From a virus: 24,409 nt of DNA. How positions within the stretch are numbered: position 1 is the stretch's first letter; each line of letters opens with the position of its first letter. The stretch is from IMG/VR virus record IMGVR_UViG_3300000265_000020, positions 1-24,409 of that record, one strand, 5' to 3'. The notes beneath the pieces were generated by a model. The model was given only the letters and a program-made list of their open reading frames with translations. It ran no database searches and was not told the origin of the DNA. The translations under genes were made by a program, and so were the position numbers. This document shows, piece by piece, positions 3,001 to 24,409 of the stretch.

Positions 3001-6000
3001 CAACAGGAGTTTCTGTATTAACTATTCCTGGTCATGATATGACAGAGGGTAACTATATTAAACTCAAGGATAATTCCATCACAATGACATGTGCGATGGA
3101 TAATAATCAAACGCAACATACATATCCACGCCCTACTGATGCTAATTCTGGACAGTGGACGCAAATTATTTCCACTACAGAATCTACAGTTACTGTTAAC
3201 GTTGGTGTATCTGGTCCTGATGTTACTTTTACCCCACAAATAGGAACTACATATGATTCCACTTCGGGTGAAATGGTAATTGAAATTGGAGCACATACTT
3301 TAAGTGTTGGTGAAGGAGTTGTTCTTCTTGACAATTCATTCACATTCACTTGTGCTCAAGACGGTAATCTTACACAGAATACTTATCCACGTCAAGGACA
3401 AGATCCTTTTGCTGGAAGATCTATTCCAATTACTGCAAGAACTGCAACTACAATTACAATTAATGTTGGGGATGCTGGAACTGCATCTGGTGTGGCTCAT
3501 ACATTTGTTTCTGCTAATCCTAATGCAGTTCAACATCTACCACAACGTGCTCATACTTTTGTCAGTGCAGCAACCAACTCTGTTAAGTATGGTGTTGCAG
3601 CAGAAACATTTATCGATGCTGAACGTGACGAAGCAGCAAGAGTATTTACGGAAGTTAGAAACTTAATTCCTGATATTTTAAGAAGAAATACTATTACTGG
3701 TTTAAGTATTGCTAATGGATTCACTCAAGTCATTGATACGACAGTTACAGATGACTGGGATACTCCAGCATGTGCAACTGCTATTTCTGCAGTTCAATCT
3801 GGATTAGATACGATTATTCAAGCAATTGGTACGGATGCTGGTGTTGGCAACTTAACTGGAATTACCAGAACAGAACCAACACAACCATCGACATCTGATG
3901 TATTGCCTCAACCTGGTGGATATACTCCAGGTAATTGTTCTGATGTTGTATCTACAGTTAATACTCTTATTAGTATTATTTGTGATTCTACAGCAGCAGG
4001 AGATCTATCATCTCTTCCCCCAGTAGATAATGGTCTTTGGGATTGTGCTAATGTTCGAACTTCTATTGAAACATTATCTGATATTTTTTCAGATGCAGTT
4101 CAATTTGGAACTTTAAATGAACTTCCTGTTCAATCTTCTGGTGGTTATTCCACAGATGCTACGCAATCTAAGTGTTATAGAGACGTTTCTTATATTGTTG
4201 ATGCTGTTGTTAATGACTTAAGACTTGGTGGTAACATCAATAGTATTCAAGCTGGTGAAGCATACTTTGTTGGTATGAATTTAGAATATATTGATGGCGA
4301 AAAATCTGAGACTCTGGATGCTTGGAGTTATGTTGGAAACATGGCAATCGCAGCAATGCGTAACTTTGATTTCTTGGCATTTAATTGTGGCATTACAACC
4401 GGATCTGCAATTGTTGATATTGGTGATACTAGTGGTGTTCTAATTGGAATGGAAGTGGTTGAATATGATAACAGCAACGTTTCTAACCCTGCATATGTAA
4501 ATGGTCTTTTGCAAAGTGGATCAACTCCTCTTTATACTTCTATTCCTGAAGGGACATACGTAAAGAGTATTGTAAGCAGTAGCACAATTGAACTTGGAAC
4601 TAAAAACTCCAGATTATCTGTTGGATCTTTAGTTAATGCCTTACAAACAAGCACTAGCATCGATTTATATTTCTCATTTGGAAATGGTCAATGGGCAGAT
4701 ACACTACCTAAAACTGTGGTTGTTGGACCTACAGGAACTGGTGCTGATGTTATTCAAGATACGTTAACTTCTCCTACTCGTCGCGAATGTGCTCCAACTG
4801 CATCTGCTATCACTACTTTGATTGGTAATATCAATACTATTATCAATAGTGGTGTTGGTAGTGTTGCTAGACAAGAACCAACTGCTGGTATTGGGGCATT
4901 CACAAATAGAGCAACTGTATTTACAATTGATACAACAGGAACAGGTGCTTCTAATCCACATGATTTTGAAACTGGAACACCTGTACGACTTGCTCCTCGT
5001 CCTCGTTTTGATACAGTAACTAACAAATATGTTGATGTTGATAAGCGTCTTATTAGATTGCCTAATGGTTTTGAGACGAACAGAACTTATTATGTAATTG
5101 CTCCTGGCAGAACAACAAAACCAGCAGATTATTCTGATACTACTTTATTCAATGGTAGTGATCAAACTAAATTAATGCTTGCAACTTCTAAAGAGAATGC
5201 TGCAGCAGGTATTTACATCTACTCATCTGAATCTAATAGTATTGATGCTAATGTAGAGATTGATATCTATCAATTTGTTCTCGATCAAAGTTATGATCTT
5301 CATGAATACGAAGGTTCAATAACTACAACAGTTGAAGGTGGAATTCAAACAAATGTTTCCAATATTTTTGATGTTCCATTTGCTTCTGTAACCGAGCAAA
5401 AAGTATTCTTTAGACCTACTGATGGAAGTTCTTTACCTCTAGTTAGTACAACTGATGCATCTAATCCGGAAATTGCCGTTACCGATGTAACTAGTGCAGA
5501 TATTGGTAGAATTAATCCAAACAAAGAATTCTTTGTTAGATATCAAAATAGTAAAGTCTTTACAATTCATATAACTAAAGCAGATTCTATTAATAATGTA
5601 AATCCAGTAAGGTTTATTGGTGGTCAGAGTCTTAAGTTTAATGTTTATGCTAACAAACGTAGAAGTCCTGTTAGATTTGATCCAGGTTTCCAGTTAGATT
5701 CTGTTACTACTGGTAAATGGTATTTGCAATGTATTGACGAAGGTTCTAGTACTATTCTTCAAGATACTAGAGAAGAAAATATTTTCTGGAGAATTAAGCA
5801 ATCTGATTATAGTGATAGAGCAAGAACAACTGATTCTTGGTTTATCAGAACGGAAGACGAGAGAAAAGCAGAAGATAGAACATATAAGATTCGTTATGTC
5901 ATTCCTAGTTACCTTGAGAATGCTAGAGATCCTATTAATGGATTTGTTCTTAAAACAAGAACTGATGATACTCGTAGGTTAGTTCCACAAGTTGTAACTT

Positions 6001-9000
6001 TAAAACCGGTTGTGGGTAATGTTTATGGTGCTAGATTTGAAAACCCTGTTCAAGCTGGTGAATTTATTGGTCAGACTACACAACAACTTGGTGGTTTAGC
6101 AAATGAACAATCTTATGATCCTTATAGAAAAGATCAAACTAATAGTGGCACTGAGTATAGAAAGTTTGCTAAATTCTCATCTGGATTGCAGGCAACCATT
6201 CAATCTGCTCGTTATGTAGAAGATCCTATTGATTCTACGATTAAATATTTACAACTGAGTCTTGTTGACCATACTGTTGATAGTTTAAACTTCCCTGGTC
6301 TTAGAAACGAACAGTTTACTACTATTCCAATTTCTGCTCCTCAAGGTGGAACATTTGTAACTAATAAAACAGCAAACATTGCTTCTTCTCAGATTCAATG
6401 GACTGGTTATTCCTCTGGTCTTGCTAACATTCATGCATATCTAACCATTAATGGTTTTCACTACTTAATTGTTAAAAATATTCGTGGTGGAAAACTTGAG
6501 TATAGTGAGTTTTCAAATACTAGATTTACACAAGGAACGGTATTTGCTGATATGCTTGATGATCAAGACATGGGCAAATCGTTACCTTTAAAAACACTAA
6601 TTGGAAAAAATTATCCCCAATATTTTTACAAGCAAAACGGCGCTAATGTTTATACCATTACTCCTGGTGATCGTATTACTGATGACGATGGTATTGAATA
6701 TTTTGTTGATAGTGTTGCAGATGCAGGAGTTATCGAAGATACTTTCTATGTCTTTAGTTATGAAACACTACAACGTAGAATTTCAGGTCAGCAAGATGGT
6801 ATCTATTATCTTTCTTGCTTACGTGGTAACATTTCTCCATTCCCAACAGGTGCTGGTGTTGCAGAGAACTTTAAAAAGTTTAAATTCTCTCAACCTGTAA
6901 GTAGACTATTCCCTTTAAACTATAAGAATGATCCACTTTGGTTCCAAAAGAATGGAACAACAGCAGAAGAACTTAACTTTGCTTCACAACAATTAGATCC
7001 ACCACCAACATATTCTGCTGCTGACAACTATGTTCATGGTCTTGTCACAGTTAATGATAATAAGAATTCTGTAACTAGGGAATTAGTTGAAGATTTTCTT
7101 AATAACCCAGCATTTATTATTAACACATATACTGGTGTTAATAAAATTGGAGCACAGGAAGGTAATGCAACTTCTGGTTCCGAAGATAGATTAATTCCTA
7201 TTGTTGGCGATAGTCGAGTATTAGTTGATCAACGTTATTATGTTGAACTTAGAAGACCTTCTATTGCTCGTGCTGGCAATCACACGTTTGAGTATCTTGG
7301 ATTCGGTCCAGGAAACTACTCCACAGGTCTCCCAGCGCGTCAGGAAGTTGTCTTAACAGCTGAAGAAGACTTCTACGCACAAAGTAAGAAAGAAGACGGT
7401 GGTATCGTCTTCTACACGGGTCTAAATTCCAACGGTGATCTCTATATTGGTAATCGTAAGATTAATGCTATTACAGGTGAAGAAACATTCCTTGAAGCAG
7501 CAGTTCTTCAAGATAGCGAAGATGAAAATGATTCTATTGGAAACTTAGTTACATCTTTTGATACTCCTGTAACTTTCAATCAAAATATCACGGTTGTTGG
7601 TGGAGATGGAACCTTACAAAATGTTTTCCAGTCACCATTAATTGTTTCGGTACAAGATAATGATCTTACTGAAATTAGAGATTCTTTAATTATTCGTTCT
7701 AATGTATCTTCTGTTGATCCGGTAACTCAATTTGAGCAAGATGAATTACTAGACAGAACATCGTTCTCTAATCCTGGTTCTCCATTAGATGGAGATATTA
7801 GAATCAGTAAGAATAGAATTAATGCTGCTATTTTCGGTTGGAATCCTAGAGGAAAGGGTCAAAAATATCAGATCCAAACTCATACTACTAATGGTGCTCC
7901 TTCAAACATTACACCAAACAATAATAATACTATTGCTGCTGGTGGTGATAGACTATTCCTTAATCAAGTAACTAATTATAGTGGTGTTCAACCATCCTCT
8001 GGTGATATTTTATTCAAAGGAAAGGAGTTAGGCAAATCTGGATCAATTGGGTGGACACTTTGTAATTTCTTCTCTGATATTGCAACTAATCAAATTTTCA
8101 GTATTGAATTTAATGGAACAAATGTTGTTAAGTTGACATTTATTCAACAGGGAACTGGACTTCCGATCCAAAATAATGCTATTGGTTTAGACTCTGGTTC
8201 GCAAATTAGATTTTCTAATTATCCAAACCCATTGCTTAACGGAACGTGGACAGTATTCAGTCCAAATGGAGATCCTTTCTTACCAACTAATAACTATATT
8301 CAATTCCAAATTAATGATAATATTACAATTGAAACTATTAGTTGGAATGGCGCTGGAGGTATTTTAACACAATCGGCATCTACTCTTGTAGAATTTGCTA
8401 ATTTTGGTTGGAAAGAATTTGGAGTTATTGGTGGTGAAGCAATCAGAACTGAGACTGAAACTATTGGTGACTATAAGTTAGGTGTTAATACTATTGCACG
8501 TTCTGCTCATGAAGCATCTCAAAATGCATTTGTTTCTGTTGAAACAGGACCAAGAGCAAACTTAGATGTTGTAGGCACTGCATTCATTAGTGGTAAGAAA
8601 ATTAATTCTTACTTAACGGAAGTTGGTAACGTTAAAACTGAAACTAATCAAGATAATGCATTTTTGGTTGGTGGTGATAGCACAACACCAAATGATCCTG
8701 CTGTGTTGAGAGTGATGACTACCAATGGCGGTAGGTTGGGCATTAATACATCTCTTGGTGATACTATCAATCCTTCGAATAATCTTGATACTGATTTTGT
8801 TGTAGTTGGTGATTCTAGAATGCAGGGTAATTTGAACCTTGCACTAGATCTTCAAGTTAATGGTGGAGATATTACAAGTACAAATGGCACATTTAACTTT
8901 GTAAATCAAGGACCAACTATCTTTAATGCTGCTGGTGATGCCACTCAAGTAAATATATTTGGTGGAGCAACAGGAGAGCAAACTATTAGAGTTGGTAGCG

Positions 9001-11423: not shown

Positions 11424-11428
11424 TAAAA

Positions 11429-12718
11429 ATGGCATTTTACCAAGAAACAAGGACCATGCGAGCTGCTGTTATCGGCACAATTATGCCATGGTCTGGTACA
11501 TTAAGCGGCATACCTGCAGGGTGGATTATATGTGATGGATCCTCAAAAGAAGCAGATGAATATCCTTTATTGGTTCAGTCAATTGGGGACACATATAATT
11601 TAAGTGGGAGTGGTAATTTAGGTGGAGGATTTCCGAATTATAGTGGACAATTTACTTTACCTAATTTAGTTGATGGGAGATATTTGGCAGACTATGAGGT
11701 AGATTATTTTGTTTCTGGAACGGGAACTGATAGTCCTATTGAATTAGATTCTGATGCTAGAAATCTAATTGAACCTTTTATTGGTGAAAATACTGACAAT
11801 GGTGTTCCAATCATTTTTAATGATGTTTTTACTGATGTGGAATTTACATTAAATGATAGAAGTGGTTACGCTGGAAATATTAAGGGAAATACAATTATTC
11901 CTGGACAAGGAATTAGACCTGTCTTTATTGGTGGTAGAAAATTGGGTAATGGTCATGTAAGATCACACGCACATCCAGGGGTTTATTCTACTATAGATGA
12001 TTCACAGAGAAATAGACCTGGACTTGGTGTTATTCCATACGACAACATTACGGCAACTTTTAATTATGCTTCATTTGACGATCGGCAGATTGTATCAATT
12101 TTAGGTATACCAGTTGATGTTACTGGTCCCGTAGGAGTTGATGAAGCGAGGTTTGGAGTAGAGTGGTATGCTCCTGATGGAAATACTGATATTGGTAGCA
12201 ATAATACTTGGGACTCAAGTTTCTCTAGTTTTAGTGGTTTTGGTGGAGGACTTCCTGGTAGAACTATGGCTCAAGTTCGAGGTGAAAATCCACCCGTTAA
12301 TCTAACTCCCCTCTTTGCCACTTTTACCCCTGTTGTTAATTTTTCTGAGTGGACCCAGAGAGCAATTGATAGTGAGGATACAATTAATTTTGGACTTTTT
12401 GGTCAAAGTTTTTCTATTCCTCAAGGATTTAGAAATAACTATAATACTCTTCCTGCAGACCCCAATGATAGATATTCTACTTTCGTGAGCAATCCTCAAA
12501 GTGCTTGGCAAGAAACAGATTTCCCAGCACATGGACATGATCCATTTGATGTTGTCTTCAATCAAAATAGTTTAAAACCTCAACCAGGTCTGGTAGCTAG
12601 TGTAAATGTTCCACCACAAACTCTACTGGATAATGCATCTAATGTTGGTGCATTGCAGATTAATATGAATACGTCTCAACCTTCGTTAACTTGTATATAC
12701 ATTATCCGAGCATATTAA
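11429..12718 (+). CDS. Phage tail-collar domain protein 1 (fibre-like)
   Basis: The protein is 429 residues. Residues about 13-90 match the phage tail-collar fold: IGTIMPW, then GW-[IL]-x-CDG (C35-D36-G37), then an FTLPNL strand ending near 80. A His-Ala-His motif (H180, H182) and a His-Gly-His motif (H368, H370) flank a long Gly/Asn-rich middle. Paired HxH motifs resemble those that coordinate metal in the trimeric fibres T4 gp12 and gp37. The C-terminus ends YIIRAY. I chose the ATG at 11429, five bases after the giant gene's stop, because an AGGA lies upstream and the N-terminus MAFYQETRTM is sensible. An in-frame ATG at 11402 would overlap the giant gene and lacks such a site. It is likely a short tail fibre or fibre-tip subunit. 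The exact role is unknown. Confidence 0.85.
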   Translation: MAFYQETRTMRAAVIGTIMPWSGTLSGIPAGWIICDGSSKEADEYPLLVQSIGDTYNLSGSGNLGGGFPNYSGQFTLPNLVDGRYLADYEVDYFVSGTGTDSPIELDSDARNLIEPFIGENTDNGVPIIFNDVFTDVEFTLNDRSGYAGNIKGNTIIPGQGIRPVFIGGRKLGNGHVRSHAHPGVYSTIDDSQRNRPGLGVIPYDNITATFNYASFDDRQIVSILGIPVDVTGPVGVDEARFGVEWYAPDGNTDIGSNNTWDSSFSSFSGFGGGLPGRTMAQVRGENPPVNLTPLFATFTPVVNFSEWTQRAIDSEDTINFGLFGQSFSIPQGFRNNYNTLPADPNDRYSTFVSNPQSAWQETDFPAHGHDPFDVVFNQNSLKPQPGLVASVNVPPQTLLDNASNVGALQINMNTSQPSLTCIYIIRAY

Positions 12719-12719
12719 A

Positions 12720-13610
12720 ATGTCAAATTACACCAGAGAAAAATCAAAATACGGGGGTTGTGTTGGTAGCATCATTATCCACACAACACCAGGACTGGGA
12801 TTAGTAAATGATCCTAGTAGTGCTCAGTTTAGACAAAAAATTCCGGGTGGTTATTTGAGATGTGATGGTTCTATTCTAAATTCAAAAGATTATCTTGCTT
12901 TATCCAATCTTTTAGGATCTGGTGAGGCAACTAGATTTATTAAACCAGGAACTACTCCAAGAGAACCAGATGTAGCAATTAATGATCTAGGTCAGTTTTC
13001 TTTACCTGATCTTGGATCAAAAGTAATTGTAGGTGGTAGAGGAACTGGAATTTATAATAATTATGTTGTAGAAAGAGAAACTGAAAGTAATGTTATAACT
13101 ACAAGGACAGGTCCTCAAATAGCAGTTACTAGTAATTTTGGAAATCAAATTGAATCGAGTTATATTGGAAATGTAAATGTTGTTGCTCAATCTGCTTTGC
13201 AAATGGTCGGAAATGCACGATTTAATGTTCAGCAACAAACTACAGAAACTGTCTTAAATATTGAAAATTTTCAAGGTCATGCACATAGATCAAACCAAAA
13301 ATTCTTACAATATTCTGCTGAACACGAAGTTGGTGCTTTTGGTGGTAAAGATCGTGCTCAGAGAGAAGGAGCTAGTGGGTCTGGAAATTCACTAGACGTT
13401 AGTAACGATTGGGATCAAGGAGCATCTACACACTCACATCGAATTACAAGACCTTTCAGTTATGGAGGTGAATTTTTATATTCTTATGGTAATACTAATA
13501 TTGACATGTCAAGTGTTCAAGTATCTCTTGATGTGGATGTATCAGACGAAGAAAAATTGGATGAGTTATCAACTCCTTTTTTGTTAGTAGAGTATCTAAT
13601 TAAATTCTAA
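12720..13610 (+). CDS. Phage tail-collar domain protein 2 (fibre-like)
   Basis: The protein is 296 residues and starts one base after the previous stop, with no clear Shine-Dalgarno site, so translational coupling is likely. The N-terminal 100 residues carry the collar signature: VGSIII, then PGGYLRCDG (C48-D49-G50), then QFSLPDL (93-98). Two HxH motifs follow, HAH at 187-189 and HSH at 238-240, closer together than in its two relatives in this cluster. The C-terminus ends VEYLIKF, similar to the YIIRAY and YIIKAF ends of the other collar proteins. The middle is rich in Asn, Gln and Val and probably forms a beta-stranded fibre shaft. It is a candidate partner or paralogue of the neighbouring fibre subunit. 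Confidence 0.8.
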   Translation: MSNYTREKSKYGGCVGSIIIHTTPGLGLVNDPSSAQFRQKIPGGYLRCDGSILNSKDYLALSNLLGSGEATRFIKPGTTPREPDVAINDLGQFSLPDLGSKVIVGGRGTGIYNNYVVERETESNVITTRTGPQIAVTSNFGNQIESSYIGNVNVVAQSALQMVGNARFNVQQQTTETVLNIENFQGHAHRSNQKFLQYSAEHEVGAFGGKDRAQREGASGSGNSLDVSNDWDQGASTHSHRITRPFSYGGEFLYSYGNTNIDMSSVQVSLDVDVSDEEKLDELSTPFLLVEYLIKF

Positions 13611-13612
13611 AA

Positions 13613-15619
13613 ATGTCACATCAACAGTTTCCGGTAATATCGTATAAAATTCCAAAAATCATTGAATATCAATGTAAATCTTTTGATGTTTCCTATTCTT
13701 TAGAAAATGCGGAACTTGGTTCCACAATGGCAATAAGATATCAATATTCTGATAGTAAAAAATTAGTTGAAACTTTAAGTTTAGATGGAGACACTGGAAT
13801 AGTGTCTGTAGAAGTAGAATGGAGTGTACAAGGACCTATATCTCTTGAAATTTCTTTTTCTGCTGAGGGAGAGGGTGGTGTTAGTGCATCTGCTCCTGAA
13901 CTTATTGGTGTAAATAATGTTATAGCATCTCCAGGAACACCTACAAAATATAAGTATAAATCATTAGCAGAAGAAAATGCTATTGTTCCTATTTCAGAAG
14001 CAAAAGTAGCAAAATCTGCTACACCAGAAGAATTGGCGGCATTAATTAACTGTATTTCTGTTATTGATGAAACATCTAATAGTACATATTCAACTAATGC
14101 ATCTTTACTTAATCAAATATGGAATGGAAGTCCGGCAGTTGTTGGTGGTACTGTAGATAATCGTAGAGGATTTAGGACAGCATTTCCATTTAGAACGTTC
14201 TGGATTTTAGATCCAGAACTGCAGTCTACATCCCGAAATATTAATTTGCCTACAGCATATAATGGAGATCCTAATACAAATGGTCCAATTCGTGTTAATC
14301 GCGATGAAGGAAATGCTGCTAATAGATCTGAATGGTTTGATATTTGTGGATTAAATAATGTCCCTGCAGGAACATATGTGTCTTTATGGATTGATATTTC
14401 CGGTTCAATGAGACTCTCTACAGTTCAGGCATCGTATGATCGTTTTATATCACGTTGTAATGCTGCAGGATTAATTGTTGTTCAAAACTTCAGTGCCGCT
14501 GGTGAAAGATATATTGAACAACATATTGCATATTTTCCTCCTAGTGGTAGATTAAAAATTGTTAATAATGCTGGAAATGAAGTAGATACTATACAAATTA
14601 TATCAGGAGAAACCGTTACATTAAGATGGGTTATATTTGGTGATGTTGCTGGTGTTACTATTTCTCCTAATGTTATATCTTCTACAAATCCTCTTAATTT
14701 TGCCAATGATATTACTGTAAGTCCAACTCAAAATACAACATATAGTTTGATTGCATTTGGAATTGGAAGTGGAAGTTTAAGTGATAATGTTACAGTTAAT
14801 GTATATGTTCCTCCTATAATGTTCATGAACATTTCAGGAACTGATCCTATTATTAGAGGATCTTGTACAACTATTCAGTGGGGTAAAATTGAGGGTGATG
14901 CAAGTAGAGTTGTCTGGACGGCAGGAAACATTTCTAGTGCAAATGTAACAGGATCGGAACAGGTTTGTCCACAATCAACAACAACTTTCACTGGAAAATT
15001 GCAATTTCGTATTGGTGGAGTTGTTATACTCGAATCTCCAGAAGTATCAGTAACAGTTACTGTATACAATCCACCAACTGCTAGTATATCTTCTCCAAAT
15101 TCAGTAAATTATAATTCTGGTGGGGCAAATGGTAACGTTAATCTTTCATATAGTTTTAGATATGCTAACACTAGCGTAGAAATAACACCAACATATAGCT
15201 ATTATACTGCAACTGGAGGAACAGAAGATGTTGTTGGAAGTGCAGTTACTATTACTCCAATAAGCACTAGTTCAGAATCCGGACCATTAATTACAGGAAG
15301 TGCTAATATACCTACACCATGGAATGATTTTGGTCCATATCAAATTAGTTATAGTATTTCAGCAATAGGCGATGGTGGAACAGTATTTGACTCTAGTGAT
15401 ACTACAGTTGTTATTGATCAACTACCAAATAATTTTAATATTCCTGAGAGTGAAGATTTGATCAAAAATGAACAACTAGTACTTAGTCCAGATACTGAAA
15501 TCTTAACCGAACTTATACTCATAGACGATATTGATATTCCTGTAGAAATTAAAGCGAATCGGGCAATTTTGGTTGATAAGAATAGGCAAGAGGATTGGAT
15601 TAAAGTTCGATCTATTTAA
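13613..15619 (+). CDS. Structural protein with MIDAS-like motif and Ig-like domains
   Basis: The protein is 668 residues. Residues about 185-305 form a domain with a strand entering WIDISGSM, that is D261-x-S263-x-S265, which matches the metal-binding MIDAS motif of von Willebrand factor A domains. A predicted helix (TVQASYDRFISRC) and a strand (GLIVVQNF) follow, but only about 45 residues separate the motif from the next domain. A full vWA fold is therefore absent, or the domain is a short variant. Two Ig-like repeats follow at about 313-401 and 402-488, each with a T-[LI]-x-W strand, a TTTY/TTTF turn and a closing Thr/Val strand ending in PP. A third beta-rich domain spans about 489-600. 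No collar domain or HxH motif is present. It is probably an adhesin-like virion component. The MIDAS function is inferred from the motif alone. Confidence 0.7.
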   Translation: MSHQQFPVISYKIPKIIEYQCKSFDVSYSLENAELGSTMAIRYQYSDSKKLVETLSLDGDTGIVSVEVEWSVQGPISLEISFSAEGEGGVSASAPELIGVNNVIASPGTPTKYKYKSLAEENAIVPISEAKVAKSATPEELAALINCISVIDETSNSTYSTNASLLNQIWNGSPAVVGGTVDNRRGFRTAFPFRTFWILDPELQSTSRNINLPTAYNGDPNTNGPIRVNRDEGNAANRSEWFDICGLNNVPAGTYVSLWIDISGSMRLSTVQASYDRFISRCNAAGLIVVQNFSAAGERYIEQHIAYFPPSGRLKIVNNAGNEVDTIQIISGETVTLRWVIFGDVAGVTISPNVISSTNPLNFANDITVSPTQNTTYSLIAFGIGSGSLSDNVTVNVYVPPIMFMNISGTDPIIRGSCTTIQWGKIEGDASRVVWTAGNISSANVTGSEQVCPQSTTTFTGKLQFRIGGVVILESPEVSVTVTVYNPPTASISSPNSVNYNSGGANGNVNLSYSFRYANTSVEITPTYSYYTATGGTEDVVGSAVTITPISTSSESGPLITGSANIPTPWNDFGPYQISYSISAIGDGGTVFDSSDTTVVIDQLPNNFNIPESEDLIKNEQLVLSPDTEILTELILIDDIDIPVEIKANRAILVDKNRQEDWIKVRSI

Positions 15620-15659: not shown

Positions 15660-18600
15660 ATGACCTATACATTTGCGCCTAATGATGAACCACTGTTCGT
15701 TGATCAGGGTGACTATGTGCAGTTTAGATTTAAAGCACCCAATAATTGGAACACCACAGAAACAGTAAGAGTTGAAGTTGGTGAACTAGTCCAATTCTGG
15801 TTACTTACAACAATTCCTGAAGATTTTACTCCAGATCCATTTCCTTTTCTTGATTATGAACCCGCTGCGTTAAATACTAGATATGTTTATGGTGATGGCA
15901 ATCGTCCTGCAGAGAATATTATTACAGTTAGCGGATTAACACCAACAACTCAAGCACCTATTCGTATAACCTCTTCTTTATTTGGGGGTGTTGATCTATA
16001 TTCTTTGAGAATCGATCCAGTAGATCAAGGTGGTGGATTTGGTCCTTGGATACAACCAGGTGGATCACAAACAGTTGAAAATGGCGATAGAGTTCAGATA
16101 AGATCTACTTCATCTGAGTTTCCTGCTGATATTACTAGAACTACTTTAACAATTGGAACATCGTCATCTACATGGGAAATTATAACCCAAGGACAACCAC
16201 AAAATATTCCTTTTCCGTTTCCAACTTTTACAGATTTAGTTGATCAACCAACGAATACACTTATATACAGTGATGTGATTCGTATCCAAGGATTGATTGC
16301 TGATGCATTTTTAGTATTAAATCCTTCTACAGGAGCAACAGCACGTTGGGCAGTTTCTTCTCAAAATGTCACCACAACAAATGCTCAGGGATTTGCTATT
16401 TTAAATGGTGTTACATTTAGTGAAAATCCAGCAGATGTAAGTAATGGAGATTACTTACAATTACAAATTCTTTCTTCTCCAAGTGGTCTTACTCCAGTCT
16501 TTGCAGATCTTACTATTGGAGATGGTGCAAATCTTTCGACGTGGACAGTAACTACTGATAATGCTCCTTCTACATCTCCTACCCCATTTCAATTTAATGA
16601 TCGCACAGGTGTTCCTGAAAATACTTTAATTCAATCAAACACGAGAACTATAACTGGATTAGGTGTTCCTGTTGAAGTTAGTCTTCTCAACACAGATTCC
16701 GCTGAGGTTAGTGTAAAAATTAATGATGGATCTGTAGGAACGTTTCCTGTAACTGTAGAAAATAATGATACTATAACAGTATACATGAGATCCAGTGCAG
16801 TATTCAGTGAATTTAGAGAATTAACTATTAGAGTTGGAACACTTGATATCAATCCATGGACTATTCAGACAAATGCTGGTCCAGATACTGATGCAATTTT
16901 TACTCCACCAGCTAATAAAATAAATCAATACCCAGATACATTTATCTCCAGCTCTGCAATAATTGTAGAAGGAATTAATAGACCAATTACAATTTCTGCA
17001 ACAAATAATGCATTAATTTCAATTGATTTTGATACACCAAGTGCAAGTCCTAGAATATTTAATCCAAATCAAAATGCCAGTTTTTATATATCTTTATTAT
17101 CTGCAGATCAACTATCAACACCAGAATTTACCGTAGTCACAGTAGGAACTGGAATTGCAAACAATCCATTTACTTGGACTGTTACTACTTTTGCAAACTT
17201 TCCATTAATTACATCTCAAGTTGGACAGTGGTATAGTAATAAAACATTTAAGTTTGATGGGTATACTATCGGAACAGTTCTTCCTATTCTTAAAGAGATT
17301 GTGGGTAGTTATGGGGATATAGATGATGGATTGGATAATACTACTAGCACCAGATATCCTGGTTTCTTGAAGTGTGAAGGGCAGTCACTTAATGCCGCTA
17401 GATATCCTTTCTTATTTGATATTATTGGTAATAATTATGGTGGCAATGGCATCAAAGATTTTACTGGTGCGTATTCAGGAACCTTTAATTTACCAGACTA
17501 CAGAATGAGAAGATTATGTGGAGTTGGATTTGTTGATGCTTCTCAAGGCAATTCTGCATTCTTGCCAGTAACAGGTTCTGGACTATCAATTCAAGATCCT
17601 GGTGGCGAAGGAGGATATTGGTATTTTGATAGAGTTGATACTTTAGGTCAACAACCTCTAGAGCAGTTAGAAGGAACTGGCAATACTAGTTTGATTAGTC
17701 GATTCTTTTCACTTGGAACAGTTAAAATTTCTAACTTAGAATCGATTACTGATAGTATCATATTTAATGTTACTGGATCTATAAATGGTATAATTGGACC
17801 AATGGATCCAGTAGTTGTTGTTCCACCAGTACATAATCATTTTTATATTTCTGCTATTCCTGCAGGTGATAGTGGAGATCCTGTAATTAAGTGGGGGAAT
17901 GGAACCGGTAGAGGTATGTTTGGCGTTGGAGAAAGACGTGATGAGCTTGGCGTTTCAGCAAATGACGACGGATCAGAAAATCGGGAGGCTATTCTTGCAG
18001 CTTGGGCATCTTGGATTCGTACTCTTGGTGCCTTCGAAACCGAATTGAGATTATATTACGGATCCGACTTTAATTTAAATGACTGGGTAGAGCAAAATTT
18101 ACCTTCTGGATTCCCTGTAAATGAAGAGTCTCCTGGCGGTGGAGTATTATCAGTTGGAGCCACTGATTTTGGACCAGAATCCAATGACCAATCAGTTGAC
18201 GTTGATTTTTTAAACTGGTGGATTTCTAGTATTACTAGTCTACCTAATACTTTAATCGGGACAGACAGTGCATCATTGGCAGGACTTGGCAATACTGGCA
18301 ACTATAGTCAAGCGAGCACAGGAGAAGCAGCTGCTATTATTGATACACGAGAAGGAAGATTTCTTATTGATGCTTATCTACCCCCTAATGGCACAACTTT
18401 TACTCATTCACATAAACTTACGGAAGATACTGTTGGTAATTTACAAACTGATTTTACTGGTGGTAATGTAGACGGATCTGGTGAGGTTACTTTAGGTGGA
18501 TTAACTGTTGGATCAGGATTGGGAAATGCAAGTGACGCAATAAGTGTTGAATTTGTAACAGGATCCGGATCTCCTCAAGATCTTTTTATGGATATGACAG

Positions 18601-18725
18601 ACGGAATATTTCAATTTACAACAAGTGTTAAAAAACCAATTCCTGATGTTACAATGAGACCACAACGACAAGTTCCAATTATCAATGCATTCCACAAAAC
18701 TAAATATATCATTAAAGCATTTTAA
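15660..18725 (+). CDS. Modular tail fibre: five beta domains, collar domain, paired HxH
   Basis: The protein is 1021 residues. The first about 520 residues are five repeated beta domains. The last four close with W-x-[IV]-x-T (W172, W295, W400, W506, spaced 105-123) and W47 marks the first. Most have a [GN]-D-x-[VLI] strand about 30 residues before that Trp, and domains 3 to 5 open with a [IL]-x-S-x-x-x-x-[IV]-x-G-[LI] strand. A tail-collar domain follows at about 535-620 (IGTVLP, C572-E573-G574, then FNLPDY at 609-614). HNH-type His pairs are at H725/H727 and H916/H918, 191 residues apart, almost the same spacing as in collar protein 1. The C-terminus ends KYIIKAF. An AAGGA directly abuts the ATG, which is too close for normal Shine-Dalgarno pairing. 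It is probably a host-contact fibre with an Ig-like shaft and a metal-bound trimeric tip. The domain calls are good and the function is inferred. Confidence 0.8.
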   Translation: MTYTFAPNDEPLFVDQGDYVQFRFKAPNNWNTTETVRVEVGELVQFWLLTTIPEDFTPDPFPFLDYEPAALNTRYVYGDGNRPAENIITVSGLTPTTQAPIRITSSLFGGVDLYSLRIDPVDQGGGFGPWIQPGGSQTVENGDRVQIRSTSSEFPADITRTTLTIGTSSSTWEIITQGQPQNIPFPFPTFTDLVDQPTNTLIYSDVIRIQGLIADAFLVLNPSTGATARWAVSSQNVTTTNAQGFAILNGVTFSENPADVSNGDYLQLQILSSPSGLTPVFADLTIGDGANLSTWTVTTDNAPSTSPTPFQFNDRTGVPENTLIQSNTRTITGLGVPVEVSLLNTDSAEVSVKINDGSVGTFPVTVENNDTITVYMRSSAVFSEFRELTIRVGTLDINPWTIQTNAGPDTDAIFTPPANKINQYPDTFISSSAIIVEGINRPITISATNNALISIDFDTPSASPRIFNPNQNASFYISLLSADQLSTPEFTVVTVGTGIANNPFTWTVTTFANFPLITSQVGQWYSNKTFKFDGYTIGTVLPILKEIVGSYGDIDDGLDNTTSTRYPGFLKCEGQSLNAARYPFLFDIIGNNYGGNGIKDFTGAYSGTFNLPDYRMRRLCGVGFVDASQGNSAFLPVTGSGLSIQDPGGEGGYWYFDRVDTLGQQPLEQLEGTGNTSLISRFFSLGTVKISNLESITDSIIFNVTGSINGIIGPMDPVVVVPPVHNHFYISAIPAGDSGDPVIKWGNGTGRGMFGVGERRDELGVSANDDGSENREAILAAWASWIRTLGAFETELRLYYGSDFNLNDWVEQNLPSGFPVNEESPGGGVLSVGATDFGPESNDQSVDVDFLNWWISSITSLPNTLIGTDSASLAGLGNTGNYSQASTGEAAAIIDTREGRFLIDAYLPPNGTTFTHSHKLTEDTVGNLQTDFTGGNVDGSGEVTLGGLTVGSGLGNASDAISVEFVTGSGSPQDLFMDMTDGIFQFTTSVKKPIPDVTMRPQRQVPIINAFHKTKYIIKAF

Positions 18726-18727
18726 CT

Positions 18728-19387
18728 ATGAATCCTCCTGAAATTCCTGATTATAGACCTTTTGAATTGATGCAAGATGAAAATATTACCAAATCCAATT
18801 TTACAGATTTTATAGGAGTTTGGGATAATTTTATGCCCAAACCACTATGTGAACAAATAATAACTTTTTGTGATATGATGATGGAAATGGGTAGCATACC
18901 CACCACTCCAGATGACACCTCTTCAGAAGTTTTTCAATCACAAGATTACTACCAAGGATCTTTGAAGAGATGTGATAGTGCATTTCTTTTAAATTACAGT
19001 AATAAATTATTGTGTTATCAGATAAACAGTATTTTAAGATCTTGTGCCAATCATTATATTTACAAATATAATTCTTTGAGAAATACTGGATTAATTTCTA
19101 CAGATATTAAAGTTCAAAAAACACCTCCTGGTGGTGGTTATCATATTTGGCATCACGAAAATGCAAATTTAGATCATGCTGCTAGAGAATTGACATGGAT
19201 GATTTATTTGAATGATATGCCAGATGGCGAAGCAGAAACTGAATTTTTATATCAACGTAGAAGAATAAAACCAACAGCAGGAACTGTTGTTATATGGCCA
19301 GCAGGATATACACATCCACATAAAGGAAATACGGTGATGACAGAAGATAAATATATTTTAACAGGTTGGTATATCAAAAACAAATAA
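18728..19387 (+). CDS. 2OG-Fe(II) oxygenase family protein 1
   Basis: The protein is 219 residues. The C-terminal half matches the double-stranded beta-helix of 2-oxoglutarate/Fe(II) dioxygenases. The motif GYHIWHHEN gives a candidate H142-x-E144 iron pair, then come LTWMIYLND, a PTAGTVVIWPAG strand and a distal His in THPHKG (H196 or H198). The usual Arg that binds 2OG is replaced at the expected place by K208 in DKYILTGW. Both HxE and Lys are known variants in the superfamily, so activity is possible but not certain. The gene begins two bases after the 1021-residue fibre gene. Members hydroxylate proteins or small molecules, and the substrate here is unknown. Modification of the fibres is an inference from position. 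Confidence 0.75.
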   Translation: MNPPEIPDYRPFELMQDENITKSNFTDFIGVWDNFMPKPLCEQIITFCDMMMEMGSIPTTPDDTSSEVFQSQDYYQGSLKRCDSAFLLNYSNKLLCYQINSILRSCANHYIYKYNSLRNTGLISTDIKVQKTPPGGGYHIWHHENANLDHAARELTWMIYLNDMPDGEAETEFLYQRRRIKPTAGTVVIWPAGYTHPHKGNTVMTEDKYILTGWYIKNK

Positions 19388-19392
19388 AACTC

Positions 19393-20337
19393 ATGATAAA
19401 AAGAAACCTAATCCTAGAAATTGATTTCATCAATAATGTTATCGCTTGGGGAAACTCCCCTTCAGATCCAAATCTTGGGGCAATTGCTGACAAAAAGTAT
19501 GGATTCTCTGATGAACTGAAGGGTAAGTTTTTAACCCAAGTTGATTCATTTTGGCATAATGAAAATGACCAATTGCAATTTTTTCAGTTATTTAACACAG
19601 GAGAATATTTTTGCCAAAGAAAAAAGAAAAAAATCAACTTCTCGAATGATAGTTTTTATTGGATTCAATATGAATTCAAAGCAGCATCTACTTCTCAAGC
19701 AGAAGATTTAAATCAACAACTAACAACTTTCTATAGTGTTGTTAGGGAAGTTAAACAACTTAATGCAGAAAAAATTATTGCTAAAGTTGATCATGAGGCA
19801 GCATTCTTTGAACAAAGATGGTACAAAGTAAGAAGAGAAAAGCAAGTTATGCTGTCTCAAAGTGATTGGAGAGTGTTACCAGACATCGATGATTCGTATG
19901 AAGGAGAAAAAGCAGAATGGATTGCATGGAGATCTTATTTGAGAAATATGGTGATCCTTTCACCAAATGATGAGTCTTTTAATAACTCTGGTCTTACTTG
20001 GTTTAAACATGTCATGAATACGAGATATCCAATTGACCCTGTAAATTATAAAAAGAAATATCCCAATGGATTAGATGAAAATGGAAATGCTGCACCAGCA
20101 TTTATGGATGCAAACGATTTGAATCAATGGACTAAGTATGATTCTGTTGCATCTTCTGATTTCTATAAGAGTAGAGAGCAAAATGTTGTTGCTATGGCAG
20201 GAACAGCATTTGTCGGTAAGAAGAAAATTGATCAATCAGTGAAAGATTTAATGAAACTACTAAGAGTTGAGGATGAAGTTCCAGTAAATTGGAGTGAATA
20301 TTATGTTGAAGACTCTGAATTGGAGGAAGATTCTTAA
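19393..20337 (+). CDS. Tail-assembly-chaperone-like protein
   Basis: The protein is 314 residues. A central segment has the pattern seen in phage fibre or tail assembly chaperones of the XkdW/DUF4376 type: VRREKQVMLSQSDW (D158-W159), then an acidic linker, then AWRSYLRNM (W179, R180, Y182, R184). Around it are a charged helical region (about 85-150) and a tail rich in Asn, Lys and Trp. The last 20 residues are strongly acidic. I chose the ATG at 19393, five bases after the preceding stop. An in-frame ATG at 19366 would overlap the oxygenase gene and adds a poor N-terminus. Such proteins assist folding or trimerisation of fibres, which fits its place behind four fibre genes. The rest of the protein is not recognised. 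Confidence 0.65.
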   Translation: MIKRNLILEIDFINNVIAWGNSPSDPNLGAIADKKYGFSDELKGKFLTQVDSFWHNENDQLQFFQLFNTGEYFCQRKKKKINFSNDSFYWIQYEFKAASTSQAEDLNQQLTTFYSVVREVKQLNAEKIIAKVDHEAAFFEQRWYKVRREKQVMLSQSDWRVLPDIDDSYEGEKAEWIAWRSYLRNMVILSPNDESFNNSGLTWFKHVMNTRYPIDPVNYKKKYPNGLDENGNAAPAFMDANDLNQWTKYDSVASSDFYKSREQNVVAMAGTAFVGKKKIDQSVKDLMKLLRVEDEVPVNWSEYYVEDSELEEDS

Positions 20338-20972
20338 TGATATATGAATTTGAAATTTTAAATGATGAAAAATTGAAATATGTTATGTCATATTACAAGT
20401 ATCTAGAATGGGGAGACGGTAAGGATAGTAATGCAAATAGAAGTATAAAAAGGTGCAATACTTCTTATTATGGTGATGCTGCTGTGCATCTCAATAAATA
20501 TTGCACCAATGCACTATCCGAAAAATTAACATATCCATATTCTCTTAAAAAAATATCCAATTGTTATTTTTCTGAATTTAATACTAAAGACTATTACAAC
20601 TATCATCATGACCATAACCCATGTGGTGGTGTTAATGCTCATTGGAGCGTAACATGTTTTCTTAGTGATCCAGACACTTACGAAGGAGGAGAATTAGTAC
20701 TTCAAATTGGTGGGAAAGAAATTGAATACAAATTGCAATCAGGATTTGCCGTAGTATATCCAACTGGTATTTTGCATAAAGTAAATGAAATAACAAGTGG
20801 ATCTAGGAAAGTATTTTGTGCATGGTTGCAATCTTCTATATCTAGTAAATTTATGAGATCTCATGTATTGGATTATGGCATACATCTTATATCAAAAGAT
20901 CTTACTAAAGAAATGGGAGAATTTGATCGTTTTCGTATGGAGTTAATACGTGAGTTTTCTAATGACCTCTGA
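20337..20972 (+). CDS. 2OG-Fe(II) oxygenase 2 (PKHD/prolyl-hydroxylase-like)
   Basis: The protein is 211 residues and has a complete catalytic set. H90-x-D92 lies within YNYHHDHNP, the distal His is H147 in TGILHKV, and the 2OG-binding Arg is R157 in SGSRKVFCAW. Between them come a VTCFLSD strand and YEGGELVLQIG, typical of prolyl-4-hydroxylase-like oxygenases. It should use Fe(II), O2 and 2OG to hydroxylate an unknown target. The ATG shares its A with the TAA of the chaperone-like gene (TAATG), which implies coupled translation. The C-terminal 40 residues form a charged helical extension. Confidence 0.88.
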   Translation: MIYEFEILNDEKLKYVMSYYKYLEWGDGKDSNANRSIKRCNTSYYGDAAVHLNKYCTNALSEKLTYPYSLKKISNCYFSEFNTKDYYNYHHDHNPCGGVNAHWSVTCFLSDPDTYEGGELVLQIGGKEIEYKLQSGFAVVYPTGILHKVNEITSGSRKVFCAWLQSSISSKFMRSHVLDYGIHLISKDLTKEMGEFDRFRMELIREFSNDL

Positions 20973-21474
20973 CATTATAAAATATGACAATTTTCTAAAC
21001 CTAGAAGATTTTAAAAAAATACAAGACAAATTATCAGAACCAAATTGGTATTATGGGCATGGTTCATATCGTCCAGGACAAAGTGGCAGAAAAAATGTAT
21101 TTTGGTGCATGAGTCTACAAAAAGATGATTACTTCACAGAATATCTTCTAAATATCATTGAGGAAACGACTCAGGAAGAATACATTTTACATGATGTTTA
21201 TGCTAATGGGCATACATTTGGCACAATGGGAGATTTCCACGTTGATTGGAATGATATTACCGGTAGAACATTTTTATATTATGCAAATGCTAATTGGAAA
21301 CCGGAGTGGTGCGGTAAAACTATGTTTAATGTGAATGGAAACATTCAATATTTTGATCCTAAACCAAACTCTGCATTGTTTTTCCCCGGTTGTATACCAC
21401 ACTGTGCTGAGGCAACTTCTAAATTATTCACTGATCTCAGAGTAACTATTGCTTGGAAACTGCAACTTAAATAA
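20962..21474 (+). CDS. 2OG-Fe(II) oxygenase family protein 3
   Basis: The protein is 170 residues and carries the full 2OG-Fe(II) set: H93-x-D95 in GDFHVDW, distal H147 in GCIPHCAE, and R160 in LRVTIAWKL. The fold order is preserved: a TFLYYANANW strand, then MFNVNG, then a PKPNSALFFPG strand before the distal His. The sequence is quite different from oxygenases 1 and 2, so this is not a recent duplicate. I chose the ATG at 20962, which overlaps the upstream gene by 11 bases. An in-frame GTG at 20950 is the alternative start. It is a predicted hydroxylase with unknown substrate, cotranslated with oxygenase 2. Confidence 0.85.
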   Translation: MTSDIIKYDNFLNLEDFKKIQDKLSEPNWYYGHGSYRPGQSGRKNVFWCMSLQKDDYFTEYLLNIIEETTQEEYILHDVYANGHTFGTMGDFHVDWNDITGRTFLYYANANWKPEWCGKTMFNVNGNIQYFDPKPNSALFFPGCIPHCAEATSKLFTDLRVTIAWKLQLK

Positions 21475-21476
21475 CC

Positions 21477-21824
21477 ATGAATACTTCTTACGAATTACTT
21501 TATTTTGACAACTTCATCGAAAGTTATGCGCGACTAGTAAATAAACCAGTAGTTTATTATAGATCCACTGGTTGGAATAATAGTAGTGATGTTGATGCTA
21601 TTAATGCCTCGTACGAGATATATCGCACTATATTACCAGTTGATTTGTGGACTGCATTAAAGCAATCTGAACATGTGTTCATGATAGTTGATAATATTGA
21701 AGATACTGTGACATTTTTAGAAAACAATTTACCAGAATCTCAAGCAGGAACATTAGTTCCGGAAAATTATCTTTTTTATTCGTTATGTAACGCTGAAGGT
21801 CAAACCATTGCATCTAACGAATAA
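21477..21824 (+). CDS. Conserved-type cyanophage protein of unknown function
   Basis: The protein is 115 residues, starts two bases after oxygenase 3 and lacks a visible Shine-Dalgarno site. It is a soluble, mixed alpha/beta sequence: an N-terminal strand and helix (LLYFDNFIESYARLV), a Trp-containing helix (LPVDLWTALKQS), a strand (HVFMIVDN) and a C-terminal LFYSLCNAEGQ strand. There is no signal peptide or membrane segment. I do not recognise the family with certainty. Its position behind the oxygenases and tight coupling to the next gene suggest a late-expressed accessory role. Confidence 0.75.
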   Translation: MNTSYELLYFDNFIESYARLVNKPVVYYRSTGWNNSSDVDAINASYEIYRTILPVDLWTALKQSEHVFMIVDNIEDTVTFLENNLPESQAGTLVPENYLFYSLCNAEGQTIASNE

Positions 21825-22687
21825 TGTTTTCCGATATATTTTACCTTGTTAACAAATACAGTGTTATTAGACAAGAATATATTTCTACTATAGAAGTAAT
21901 GCCTAGAAGATTTACTTCTTTAGTAAGTGATCAATACTTGCCAGTATTATCTGAAGAGTATAAAAATAAACTTAATGGTTATTTTAACTTTACTTTTCCC
22001 ACAAGAGGAAAACCCATCTACGAATTTGATAAAGACTTGTGGATAGAATATTCTGGAGACACTGTTATTGGATATGATGCTAAATGTCCCTTAGTTTATC
22101 ATGATATCTCTAAACCTAGTATCTGGAATAGATTTGTTCGTTTATCCCAATGTCCTGAACTAAATGTATGTAAGGAAAAGATTGATAAAATAACTTCTAT
22201 TACTGATATCAATAAGACGAGGATTTTTTCAATTTCTTATGACGATGAGATGAATTTGACTGGAGTAAAACTATATGATTCTGCGTATGATCTAGGAAAT
22301 TTTTATAATAATGAAACTTTAAGTGATGTCAATACTTTTGTTCAAACGAACAAAACAAAGATGAATGCATTTGTCGAAATTAGTCCAAATATAGATAAAA
22401 TTTCGTATTTTATTGATTTTGCTTTTACATTGTCAGAAACAAAGGATGCTAATGGTTTCGTATCTTTAGTAGATGTAACACCATCATTAGTAGATGCATA
22501 CCTTTCTGTAATGAAACGAGATACAAATCAAATTATCACAAGTGAACAAGCAGATTACATTAAATCTAAATGTATTGGTAATAGTGCATTTGATTTAGAG
22601 TTTATCATAAATGATTCTGGTGAGATCGAGGATATTATATTACACCATGTTAAGATAGCAAATTTTAGGGACTTGACATTAGAGTGA
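21824..22687 (+). CDS. Unknown protein, 287 residues
   Basis: The ATG shares a base with the preceding TAA, so translation is probably coupled. The sequence is soluble and AT-rich, with many Asp, Asn, Ile and Tyr residues. It reads as alternating strands and helices and has no catalytic motif that I can see. Cys residues at about 89, 112 and 118 and near 250 are scattered and form no zinc-binding spacing. The 3' end overlaps a likely promoter -35 box at 22673. It is the last gene of the low-GC block. No function can be assigned. Confidence 0.75.
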   Translation: MFSDIFYLVNKYSVIRQEYISTIEVMPRRFTSLVSDQYLPVLSEEYKNKLNGYFNFTFPTRGKPIYEFDKDLWIEYSGDTVIGYDAKCPLVYHDISKPSIWNRFVRLSQCPELNVCKEKIDKITSITDINKTRIFSISYDDEMNLTGVKLYDSAYDLGNFYNNETLSDVNTFVQTNKTKMNAFVEISPNIDKISYFIDFAFTLSETKDANGFVSLVDVTPSLVDAYLSVMKRDTNQIITSEQADYIKSKCIGNSAFDLEFIINDSGEIEDIILHHVKIANFRDLTLE

Positions 22688-23778: not shown

Positions 23779-24282
23779 ATGATCGAACTGAACAAGGTTT
23801 ATCACTTCAAAATTGAAAACTTGTTTCACCCTGATTGCCCTAAAGGTATAGTCAAAAATCTCAGTAAGAAGATCTGTGAAGATGGTCGAACATCTTCTCC
23901 TGTTATCACCACATATGTTCATGAACAGTGGTTCCCTGAGTTGACTTACGTTGACAAAAAGTTTATCGATTTTATTGGTAAAATTATTGAGGGTATTGAT
24001 GAAGAGAGTAATATAGAGAAAAAGATGTTTACTCTTTCTGGTGGTTCTAAGTTCTGTCCATCTAACATGGTTGGTAAGGGTCGCACTATTGATCCTGTCA
24101 AATCTCGTCAAATTTGTGAAGAGAATAAATTAATCTATCTCCTCGCTGATGCTACCGAGTTTCCTAATGTTTATGTAACATTCGTGGATGGTATTGAACT
24201 GCATGATCGCCACAAATCATGTAGTATCGGTTATAATGATAAGTGGCGTAACTTTTACTTTGGACGTAATGTTGTTTCTTGA
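23779..24282 (+). CDS. Unknown protein upstream of a DNA methyltransferase
   Basis: The protein is 167 residues and has its own promoter. The sequence is mixed alpha/beta and soluble: VYHFKIENLFHPDCPKG, a basic helix (IVKNLSKKI), a Tyr/Trp-rich part (TTYVHEQWFPELTYVD), a Cys/Ser-Gly region, and a C-terminal strand pair with VYVTFVDGIELHDRHKS. No family is recognised with confidence. There is no obvious nuclease PD-ExK triad, although D, E and K residues are scattered. The end overlaps the methyltransferase start by 14 bases, so the two are probably cotranslated. Confidence 0.75.
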   Translation: MIELNKVYHFKIENLFHPDCPKGIVKNLSKKICEDGRTSSPVITTYVHEQWFPELTYVDKKFIDFIGKIIEGIDEESNIEKKMFTLSGGSKFCPSNMVGKGRTIDPVKSRQICEENKLIYLLADATEFPNVYVTFVDGIELHDRHKSCSIGYNDKWRNFYFGRNVVS

Positions 24283-24409
24283 AGATTGTTTGAATGGTAT
24301 GAAGAAATTGGAGGACGGTAGTGTAGATGCTATCGTCACATCTCCACCATATAACCTCAACATCAAATATGGTAAGTATGATGACAACAAACCACGTCAA
24401 GAGTATATT
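24269..24409 (+). CDS. DNA methyltransferase (SPPY motif), 3'-partial
   Basis: The first 47 residues are present and the frame is open to the window end. The catalytic motif IV, TSPPYN, has S25-P26-P27-Y28 in the setting DAIV-TSPPYN, with the acidic and hydrophobic lead-in typical of amino-methyltransferases. Motif IV at the N-terminus means the beta-type order, with the AdoMet-binding motif expected further on, beyond the window. It should methylate adenine N6 or cytosine N4; SPPY alone does not decide. Many T4-like cyanophages carry orphan methyltransferases thought to protect phage DNA from host restriction. Confidence 0.85.
   Translation, partial: MLFLEDCLNGMKKLEDGSVDAIVTSPPYNLNIKYGKYDDNKPRQEYI

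Follow-up and report, generated by a model that had tools for sequence, protein, structure and literature searches.

In the IMG/VR virus record IMGVR_UViG_3300000265_000020, a compact string of genes behind a short-tail-fibre gene encodes three different 2-oxoglutarate (2OG)-Fe(II) oxygenases, which we call OxA, OxB and OxC, together with a tail fibre assembly chaperone-like protein and two uncharacterised proteins. The window, that is, the whole stretch of DNA that was analysed, comprises the entire record of 24,409 bases and is a fragment of a T4-like cyanophage (Kyanoviridae). We lean towards reading the gene string as a fibre-finishing cassette, with hydroxylation of the fibre as the best explanation for its composition, and the analysis suggests that the many marine cyanobacterial viruses carrying it would use oxygen to give a chemical finish to the fibres with which they bind their hosts. 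This reading is favoured because, among solved structures, peptidyl hydroxylases are the nearest to OxA and OxC and because the conserved DNA partners of the oxygenases are a fibre and a chaperone. The features of the string are as follows.

15660 to 18725, + strand: short tail fibre of 1021 residues with a collar domain and HxH pairs at 725-727 and 916-918, the probable substrate (phrog_4924, E 0; PF07484, E 1.4e-10)
18728 to 19387, + strand: OxA, prolyl-4-hydroxylase (P4H)-like 2OG-Fe(II) oxygenase of 219 residues (PF13640, E 3.6e-11)
19393 to 20337, + strand: tail fibre assembly chaperone-like protein of 314 residues (phrog_4697, E 2e-107; Phage_tail_APC, E 8.6e-4; 2kz6, E 1.1e-7)
20337 to 20972, + strand: OxB, PiuC/PKHD-like 2OG-Fe(II) oxygenase of 211 residues (PF13640, E 8.1e-9; PiuC structures)
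20962 to 21474, + strand: OxC, PHD2/P4H-like 2OG-Fe(II) oxygenase of 170 residues, labelled 'DNA endonuclease V' by PHROGs and RefSeq (PF13640, E 0.0021; fold)
21477 to 21824, + strand: uncharacterised protein of 115 residues in the same string (phrog_4883, 1e-51), found behind OxC in most IMG/VR loci
21824 to 22687, + strand: uncharacterised protein of 287 residues in the same string (phrog_4851, 1.4e-62), next in the conserved order

From the short tail fibre onward, the intergenic gaps are 2, 5, -1, -11, 2 and -1 bases, and the genes of OxA, the chaperone, OxB and OxC stand in tandem, in frame and with zero internal stops. For OxC, the ATG at 20962 is a more likely start than the GTG at 20950. 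The closest named relatives over the run are the phages ACG-2014e, i and j and S-CAM4, with a DNA identity of about 65-70%.

Judged from their sequences, OxA, OxB and OxC look like working enzymes and not like decayed genes, because their iron and 2OG ligands never vary. In one alignment of 46 rows per enzyme, the HxD/E...H iron triad and the 2OG-binding Lys or Arg were invariant in 46 of 46 sequences, these being H142-x-E144, H198 and K208 in OxA, H90-x-D92, H147 and R157 in OxB, and H93-x-D95, H147 and R160 in OxC. OxA and OxB pass the cut-off of the Pfam family 2OG-FeII_Oxy_3 (PF13640), which OxC alone misses; 44 of the 46 OxC relatives match it, the best with an E-value of 1e-8. A sequence-only reading of the window had described three divergent oxygenases with iron ligands in a tightly coupled run, with a chaperone-like gene between the first two, and both descriptions agree with the invariant ligands, with the phrog_4697 match and with the gaps of 5, -1 and -11 bases.

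The predicted structure of OxA (AlphaFold2 (AF2), pLDDT 86) resembles P. putida P4H (Z 19.5) and chlorovirus vCPH (Z 17.8), and that of OxC (AF2, pLDDT 92) resembles P4H and PHD2 with Z of about 17 (top 17.2) over 150-165 residues. The nearest solved structures of the two enzymes, P4H, vCPH and PHD2, are protein hydroxylases with a double-stranded beta-helix, and OxA and OxC are predicted to fold as prolyl-hydroxylase-type enzymes. OxB is PiuC-like by its sequence profile, which matches the PiuC structure 9ghl (1.3e-36) and the structure 3dkq (1e-41) over almost the full length; its double-stranded beta-helix is taken from this profile match only. It scores below the curated NCBIfam cut-offs for PiuC-type equivalogs (best 104.1 bits vs 143), and in place of an adjoining TonB-dependent receptor gene it has the chaperone, OxC and the fibre as neighbours.

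The link between oxygenases and fibre is much stronger than is visible from the window alone. The order short fibre-OxA-chaperone-OxB-OxC recurs in 11 reference phages. In ACG-2014i, S-PM2, Syn1, S-CAM1, S-CAM3, S-RIM32, S-H9-2, Sf-CH1b, Sf-CH3 and Sf-CH11 it is complete and followed by the two uncharacterised trailing genes, and S-RSM4 has the cassette order with one additional gene inside and without the trailing pair; S-H9-1 and ACG-2014h have fibre-OxA-chaperone-OxB without OxC. Among the 80 IMG/VR loci with the closest OxA, the fibre lies directly 5' of OxA in 79, and the contig of the remaining one begins there. Chaperone loci with enough flank are behind a fibre in 54 of 54 cases, with OxA between the two in 50 and the full cassette in 46, and every OxC locus with enough flank (46 of 46) is part of the cassette. 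Co-occurrence of oxygenase and fibre genes, which the sequence-only reading had proposed as a check, is thus strongly positive for the cassette. The order is kept strictly over many genera at a protein divergence of up to about 60-80%, and it holds over a several-fold range of fibre lengths that extends to 1572 residues. OxA itself is nearly absent from cells: a profile search of 84,980 cellular genomes returned 2 relatives only.

That the putative chaperone acts on the adjoining fibre is suggested by its position. The Phage_tail_APC match of the window protein is below the curated cut-off, and 7 of 15 relatives match, the best at 2.5e-13. Co-variation was assessed as the correlation of distance matrices over 70 cassettes, with the two uncharacterised trailing genes as background. 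The partial correlation beyond background was 0.48 for fibre and chaperone, 0.33 for OxA and fibre, 0.34 for OxA and chaperone, and 0.44 for OxC and chaperone. This co-variation of OxA, chaperone and fibre is suggestive only, because adjoining genes share a recombination history.

From the intact active sites, the prolyl-hydroxylase fold of OxA and OxC, the PiuC kinship of OxB, the tight string and the conserved linkage to fibre and chaperone, we infer a substrate, target residues, a timing and an effect. Late in infection, the short tail fibre, its assembly chaperone and the three Fe(II)/2OG protein hydroxylases would be produced at the same time. These hydroxylases would modify residues of the short tail fibre, or of the adjoining collar and fibre proteins, with proline as the likeliest target of OxA and OxC. 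Hydroxylation would take place before or during the chaperone-aided folding and trimerisation of the fibre and may stabilise the fibre or tune its receptor-binding tip. As to the fibre maturation cassette that the sequence-only reading had proposed, the linkage to the fibre and the protein-hydroxylase folds of OxA and OxC support it, and its substrate, a fibre residue, is a matter of prediction. That reading had also included an iron-loading step. HxH pairs bind metal in the fibre tips of T4, and both pairs of the short tail fibre are conserved in at least 93% of 121 fibres. Iron loading is hence possible, but no iron-loading protein was identified, and PiuC, the relative of OxB, is tied to iron uptake and not to iron insertion. 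That the PiuC-like OxB and metal-binding HxH fibre tips jointly mimic an iron ligand seen by iron receptors of the host is a further and very improbable idea.

Upstream of the short tail fibre, the window contains further virion genes in the same orientation.

3 to 11423, + strand: giant fibre protein with its 5' end beyond the window; reference genomes often have a 2OG oxygenase directly 5' of it
11402 to 12718, + strand: gp12-like short tail fibre protein with two HxH pairs (189, 377), a possible further substrate (phrog_4591, 1.6e-146)
12720 to 13610, + strand: tail collar protein with two HxH pairs (187, 238), a possible further substrate (phrog_4714, 2.6e-117)
13613 to 15619, + strand: virion structural protein

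The run on the + strand therefore reads giant fibre, gp12-like fibre, collar protein, virion structural protein and 1021-residue short tail fibre, followed by OxA and the rest of the string. In order to place oxygenases relative to fibre blocks, 150 PF13640 hits were mapped in 20 cyanophage genomes (13 with the cassette and 7 for comparison). In the 13 cassette genomes, 43 of 100 hits are at most 5 kb 3' of a fibre block, a count that includes the cassette by which these genomes were chosen. The 5' side is independent of this choice and has 17 hits within 5 kb vs 2.9 expected, and an oxygenase stands at most 1 kb 5' of the giant fibre start in 10 of 13 genomes vs 0.36 expected, both counts being taken over related genomes that are not independent. 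In a maximum-likelihood tree of 61 oxygenases, the fibre-adjacent enzymes fall into several separate clades: OxA, OxB, OxC, the 5' enzymes, and a pair from P-SSM2 and ACG-2014f. The 5' giant-fibre enzymes of S-PM2, Syn1 and ACG-2014h form one clade, whereas that of S-CAM1 differs and groups near OxA. The starred branches of the tree force at least 9 changes of place, with loss and gain indistinguishable, and fibre-adjacent and distant copies are mixed (15 changes vs 20.4 in shuffles). Because the fibre-adjacent oxygenases are spread over separate clades, different enzymes appear to occupy the same place beside the fibre, a pattern that simple descent does not readily account for.

Other arrangements occur as well. 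In Syn9 (locus L008, 1651-13474), two genes annotated as tryptophan halogenases (one of which was checked, PF04820, 1.4e-99) and then several 2OG oxygenases come soon after tail-fibre-assembly genes, and this set might also modify virion proteins. Loci L341-L344 each have at least 4 adjoining 2OG oxygenase open reading frames (ORFs) in a single virus contig. In the giant fibre frame of S-PM2 (165928-177267; locus L022, 13557-18384), RefSeq lists 16 tRNA genes although the frame is open throughout, so either the coordinates or the annotation are doubtful.

In other lineages, too, 2OG oxygenases neighbour fibres, which are of different kinds and in some cases collagen-like. In P-SSM2, a Phage_tail_APC protein (8.1e-12) and a 2OG enzyme (1.7e-16) lie between fibre genes. 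In ACG-2014f (locus L027, 4506-9982), a tail fibre is preceded by a collagen-repeat protein (3.4e-41) and, after two small genes, by a glycosyltransferase (1.8e-12) and a 2OG enzyme (3.8e-18), a set that resembles the hydroxylation-glycosylation set of animal collagen. Of 12 loci with relatives of the ACG-2014f enzyme, some of them near-duplicates, 6 have a collagen-like ORF nearby, compared with 0 of the 80 cassette loci and 1 of the 63 loci of distant OxB; the collagen analogy is therefore limited to these other lineages. One of the two cellular OxA relatives, on a phage-like contig (L311) binned as Flavobacteriaceae, has a collagen-like tail-fibre gene on either side. Its IMG/VR relatives occur in OxA-OxB pairs, several of which stand one gene behind long tail-fibre-like proteins of another family, and in two contigs of unidentified virus type as chaperone-free OxA-OxB-OxC triads (L331, 1268-3008; L333, 819-2559). 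We tentatively propose, with less confidence than we have in the cassette itself, that unrelated peptidyl hydroxylases have come to lie beside the receptor-binding fibres of tailed phages repeatedly and in several lineages, in some cases along with a fibre chaperone or glycosyltransferase, and that hydroxylation (possibly with glycosylation in some lineages, as in animal collagen) is a general maturation route for host-binding proteins.

Several observations weigh against fibre finishing. The modified residue and the substrate are predictions from gene context and fold. No fibre residues were found that are conserved only when OxA is present and could be candidate target sites, and OxA-linked fibres differ little in glycine, proline and lysine enrichment (proline 6.3% vs 5.4%). 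A search for fusions of an oxygenase with a fibre or chaperone found none. Seven fibre-chaperone loci, including that of phage Sf-FR1, have no OxA between the two genes, distant relatives of OxB are mostly outside the cassette, and the extra correlation of OxB with the fibre is almost nil (0.04). The second cellular relative of OxA, on a Gammaproteobacteria contig (L312), lies among sugar-metabolism genes, so not all OxA relatives are linked to fibres. Furthermore, the genomes and the best 80 loci were selected by their similarity to the cassette, and related genomes are not independent. The sequence-only reading held that oxygenases found mostly away from fibres would speak against it. This is the case in the 7 comparison genomes, which have other fibre sets or lack the oxygenases and where 43 of 50 hits are more than 5 kb from fibres, several of them next to replication genes, and it is not the case for the cassette. 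Because many 2OG enzymes of these phages adjoin replication or other genes, the fibre reading does not extend to the whole 2OG superfamily.

Could the place behind the fibre simply be a spot where mobile oxygenase genes of phages tend to insert, with the order kept by descent and compact packing and no link to the fibre? The abundance of 2OG enzymes in these genomes, many of them far from fibres, the mixing of adjacent and distant copies in the tree and the fibre-chaperone pairs without OxA are all in line with such hitchhiking. It is nevertheless unlikely, given the strict order over many genera despite the protein divergence, the different clades at the same spot 5' of the giant fibre, the recurrence beside unrelated fibres and the invariant active sites. 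Slightly less probable is that the oxygenases steer translation by modifying host proteins, e.g. elongation factor Tu (EF-Tu) or ribosomal proteins, and that their position after the fibre gene provides late co-expression only. OxC weakly matches OGFOD1, which is a ribosomal-protein hydroxylase. The P. putida P4H that is the best structural match of OxA was solved in complex with EF-Tu, and B. anthracis P4H, to which OxA has a sequence match of 6.7e-7, also modifies EF-Tu according to the title of entry 5v7y. Modification of host proteins, however, leaves unexplained the fixed place of OxA between fibre and chaperone, the oxygenases at the giant fibre and the fibre-side OxA relatives in other viruses.

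A role as auxiliary metabolic or iron genes, in which the enzymes shift 2OG levels or OxB, like PiuC, serves the handling of siderophores or iron, appears a shade more doubtful still. Such a role would fit the match of OxB to PiuC (1.3e-36), the requirement of Caulobacter CciO for iron import by an adjoining outer-membrane receptor (PMC12004947), and published proposals on 2OG/nitrogen status or DNA repair (PMC3037559) and on PiuC-like iron uptake (PMC13184970). On the other hand, the cassette has zero transporter or iron genes, OxB reaches 104 bits where the NCBIfam PiuC-type cut-off is 143, OxA is almost without cellular relatives, and the folds match the peptide-modifying P4H and PHD2 enzymes. 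Finally, the cassette might act on other virion proteins (the giant fibre, the collar or the uncharacterised proteins of the run) instead of the adjoining short tail fibre. A separate oxygenase adjoins the giant fibre, and the collar and gp12-like proteins carry HxH pairs, but the chaperone and OxA track the adjoining fibre beyond background, and we regard this variant as very improbable.

The name given to OxC in databases looks wrong, and denV in cyanophages looks like a propagated error. OxC and its kin are called 'DNA endonuclease V' or denV in PHROGs (phrog_274), in RefSeq and in earlier annotations (T4-GC 100 and 166). The denV-named copies that were checked match 2OG-Fe(II) oxygenases only (window, 20962-21474; L018, 3165-3734; L023, 8427-8927; L025, 7900-8391), and the P-SSM2 'denV' matches a 2OG oxygenase at 27.3 bits vs a cut-off of 27. 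Among the matches listed for OxC, there was no nuclease or glycosylase; all were 2OG oxygenases with a complete active site. The DenV reading was dropped. An AlkB-like DNA-repair function is likewise not favoured, as AlkB is absent among the best matches listed and these are peptidyl hydroxylases. Some genes named 'ferrochelatase' are likewise 2OG enzymes, such as PSSM2_031 (P-SSM2 piuC; L026, 19678-20271), which is a 2OG oxygenase by Pfam. Another gene of that name, in S-H9-2 (L017, 11062-11652), has zero Pfam matches.

Near the end of the window, a 167-residue uncharacterised gene precedes the start of a DNA methyltransferase (23779-24409; N6_N4_Mtase, 1.5e-4), a gene truncated where the window stops. 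In the relatives ACG-2014i and S-RSM4, the annotation gives a type II restriction endonuclease and a methyltransferase at a comparable position. There are no tRNA genes in the window, and a promoter scan was uninformative (44 sites vs 35 expected in shuffles).

Few accessory genes recur as often in marine cyanophages as those of 2OG oxygenases. Should a fixed set of these indeed serve fibre assembly, this would explain why some are so strictly retained, turn vaguely metabolic genes into testable virion-assembly genes and, as far as we have found, provide the first dedicated hydroxylation of phage receptor-binding proteins. The DNA endonuclease V label on an oxygenase family would be corrected at the same time.

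OxA, OxB and OxC are new members of known families, and the fibre-coupled cassette as a unit appears to be undescribed. Published work on cyanophage auxiliary 2OG oxygenases concerns the same superfamily and phage group and already notes multiple copies per genome. It assigns them to modulation of 2OG/nitrogen status or DNA repair (PMC3037559), to host reprogramming with a function 'not specifically investigated' (PMC9602691), and to protein modification as one of several options (PMC9964418), and no link to fibres was found in the accessible text. Our searches of open-licence papers returned no literature linking these oxygenases to fibres and nothing pertinent on hydroxylated phage fibres, FlmC or cyanophage prolyl hydroxylase. 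PiuC-like genes have been connected with iron uptake (PMC13184970), and the PiuC relative CciO is required for iron import in Caulobacter, with its substrate unidentified in that work (PMC12004947).

Compared with individual systems, OxC is similar to the PHD2/EGLN prolyl hydroxylases in fold (Z 16-17) at an identity of about 20% or less. The NCBIfam model of FlmC-family 2OG oxygenases is matched by 46 of 46 OxC relatives (best 8.7e-21), but the window OxC scores 48 bits vs a cut-off of 240. OxB matches PiuC/PKHD-type hydroxylases (9ghl, 9qn1, 3dkq) at 1e-36 to 1e-41 over almost its whole length; it differs from PiuC in its neighbours and in scoring below the NCBIfam cut-offs. The cassette chaperone resembles the Phage_tail_APC (PF16778)/phrog_4697 chaperones in its position behind a fibre gene and in its profile match, whereas it has 314 residues to the domain's 60 positions and is interleaved with oxygenase genes. 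OxA is most like vCPH of Paramecium bursaria Chlorella virus 1 (5c5t) and bacterial P4H (4j25/4iw3, 5hv0), with which it shares fold and active site (Z about 18-19.5) and profile matches of 7e-6 to 7e-7. Its iron motif is HxE and not HxD, its activity is a predicted one, and the fibre beside it is not collagen-like. vCPH is itself a virus-encoded peptidyl hydroxylase, as OxA would be.

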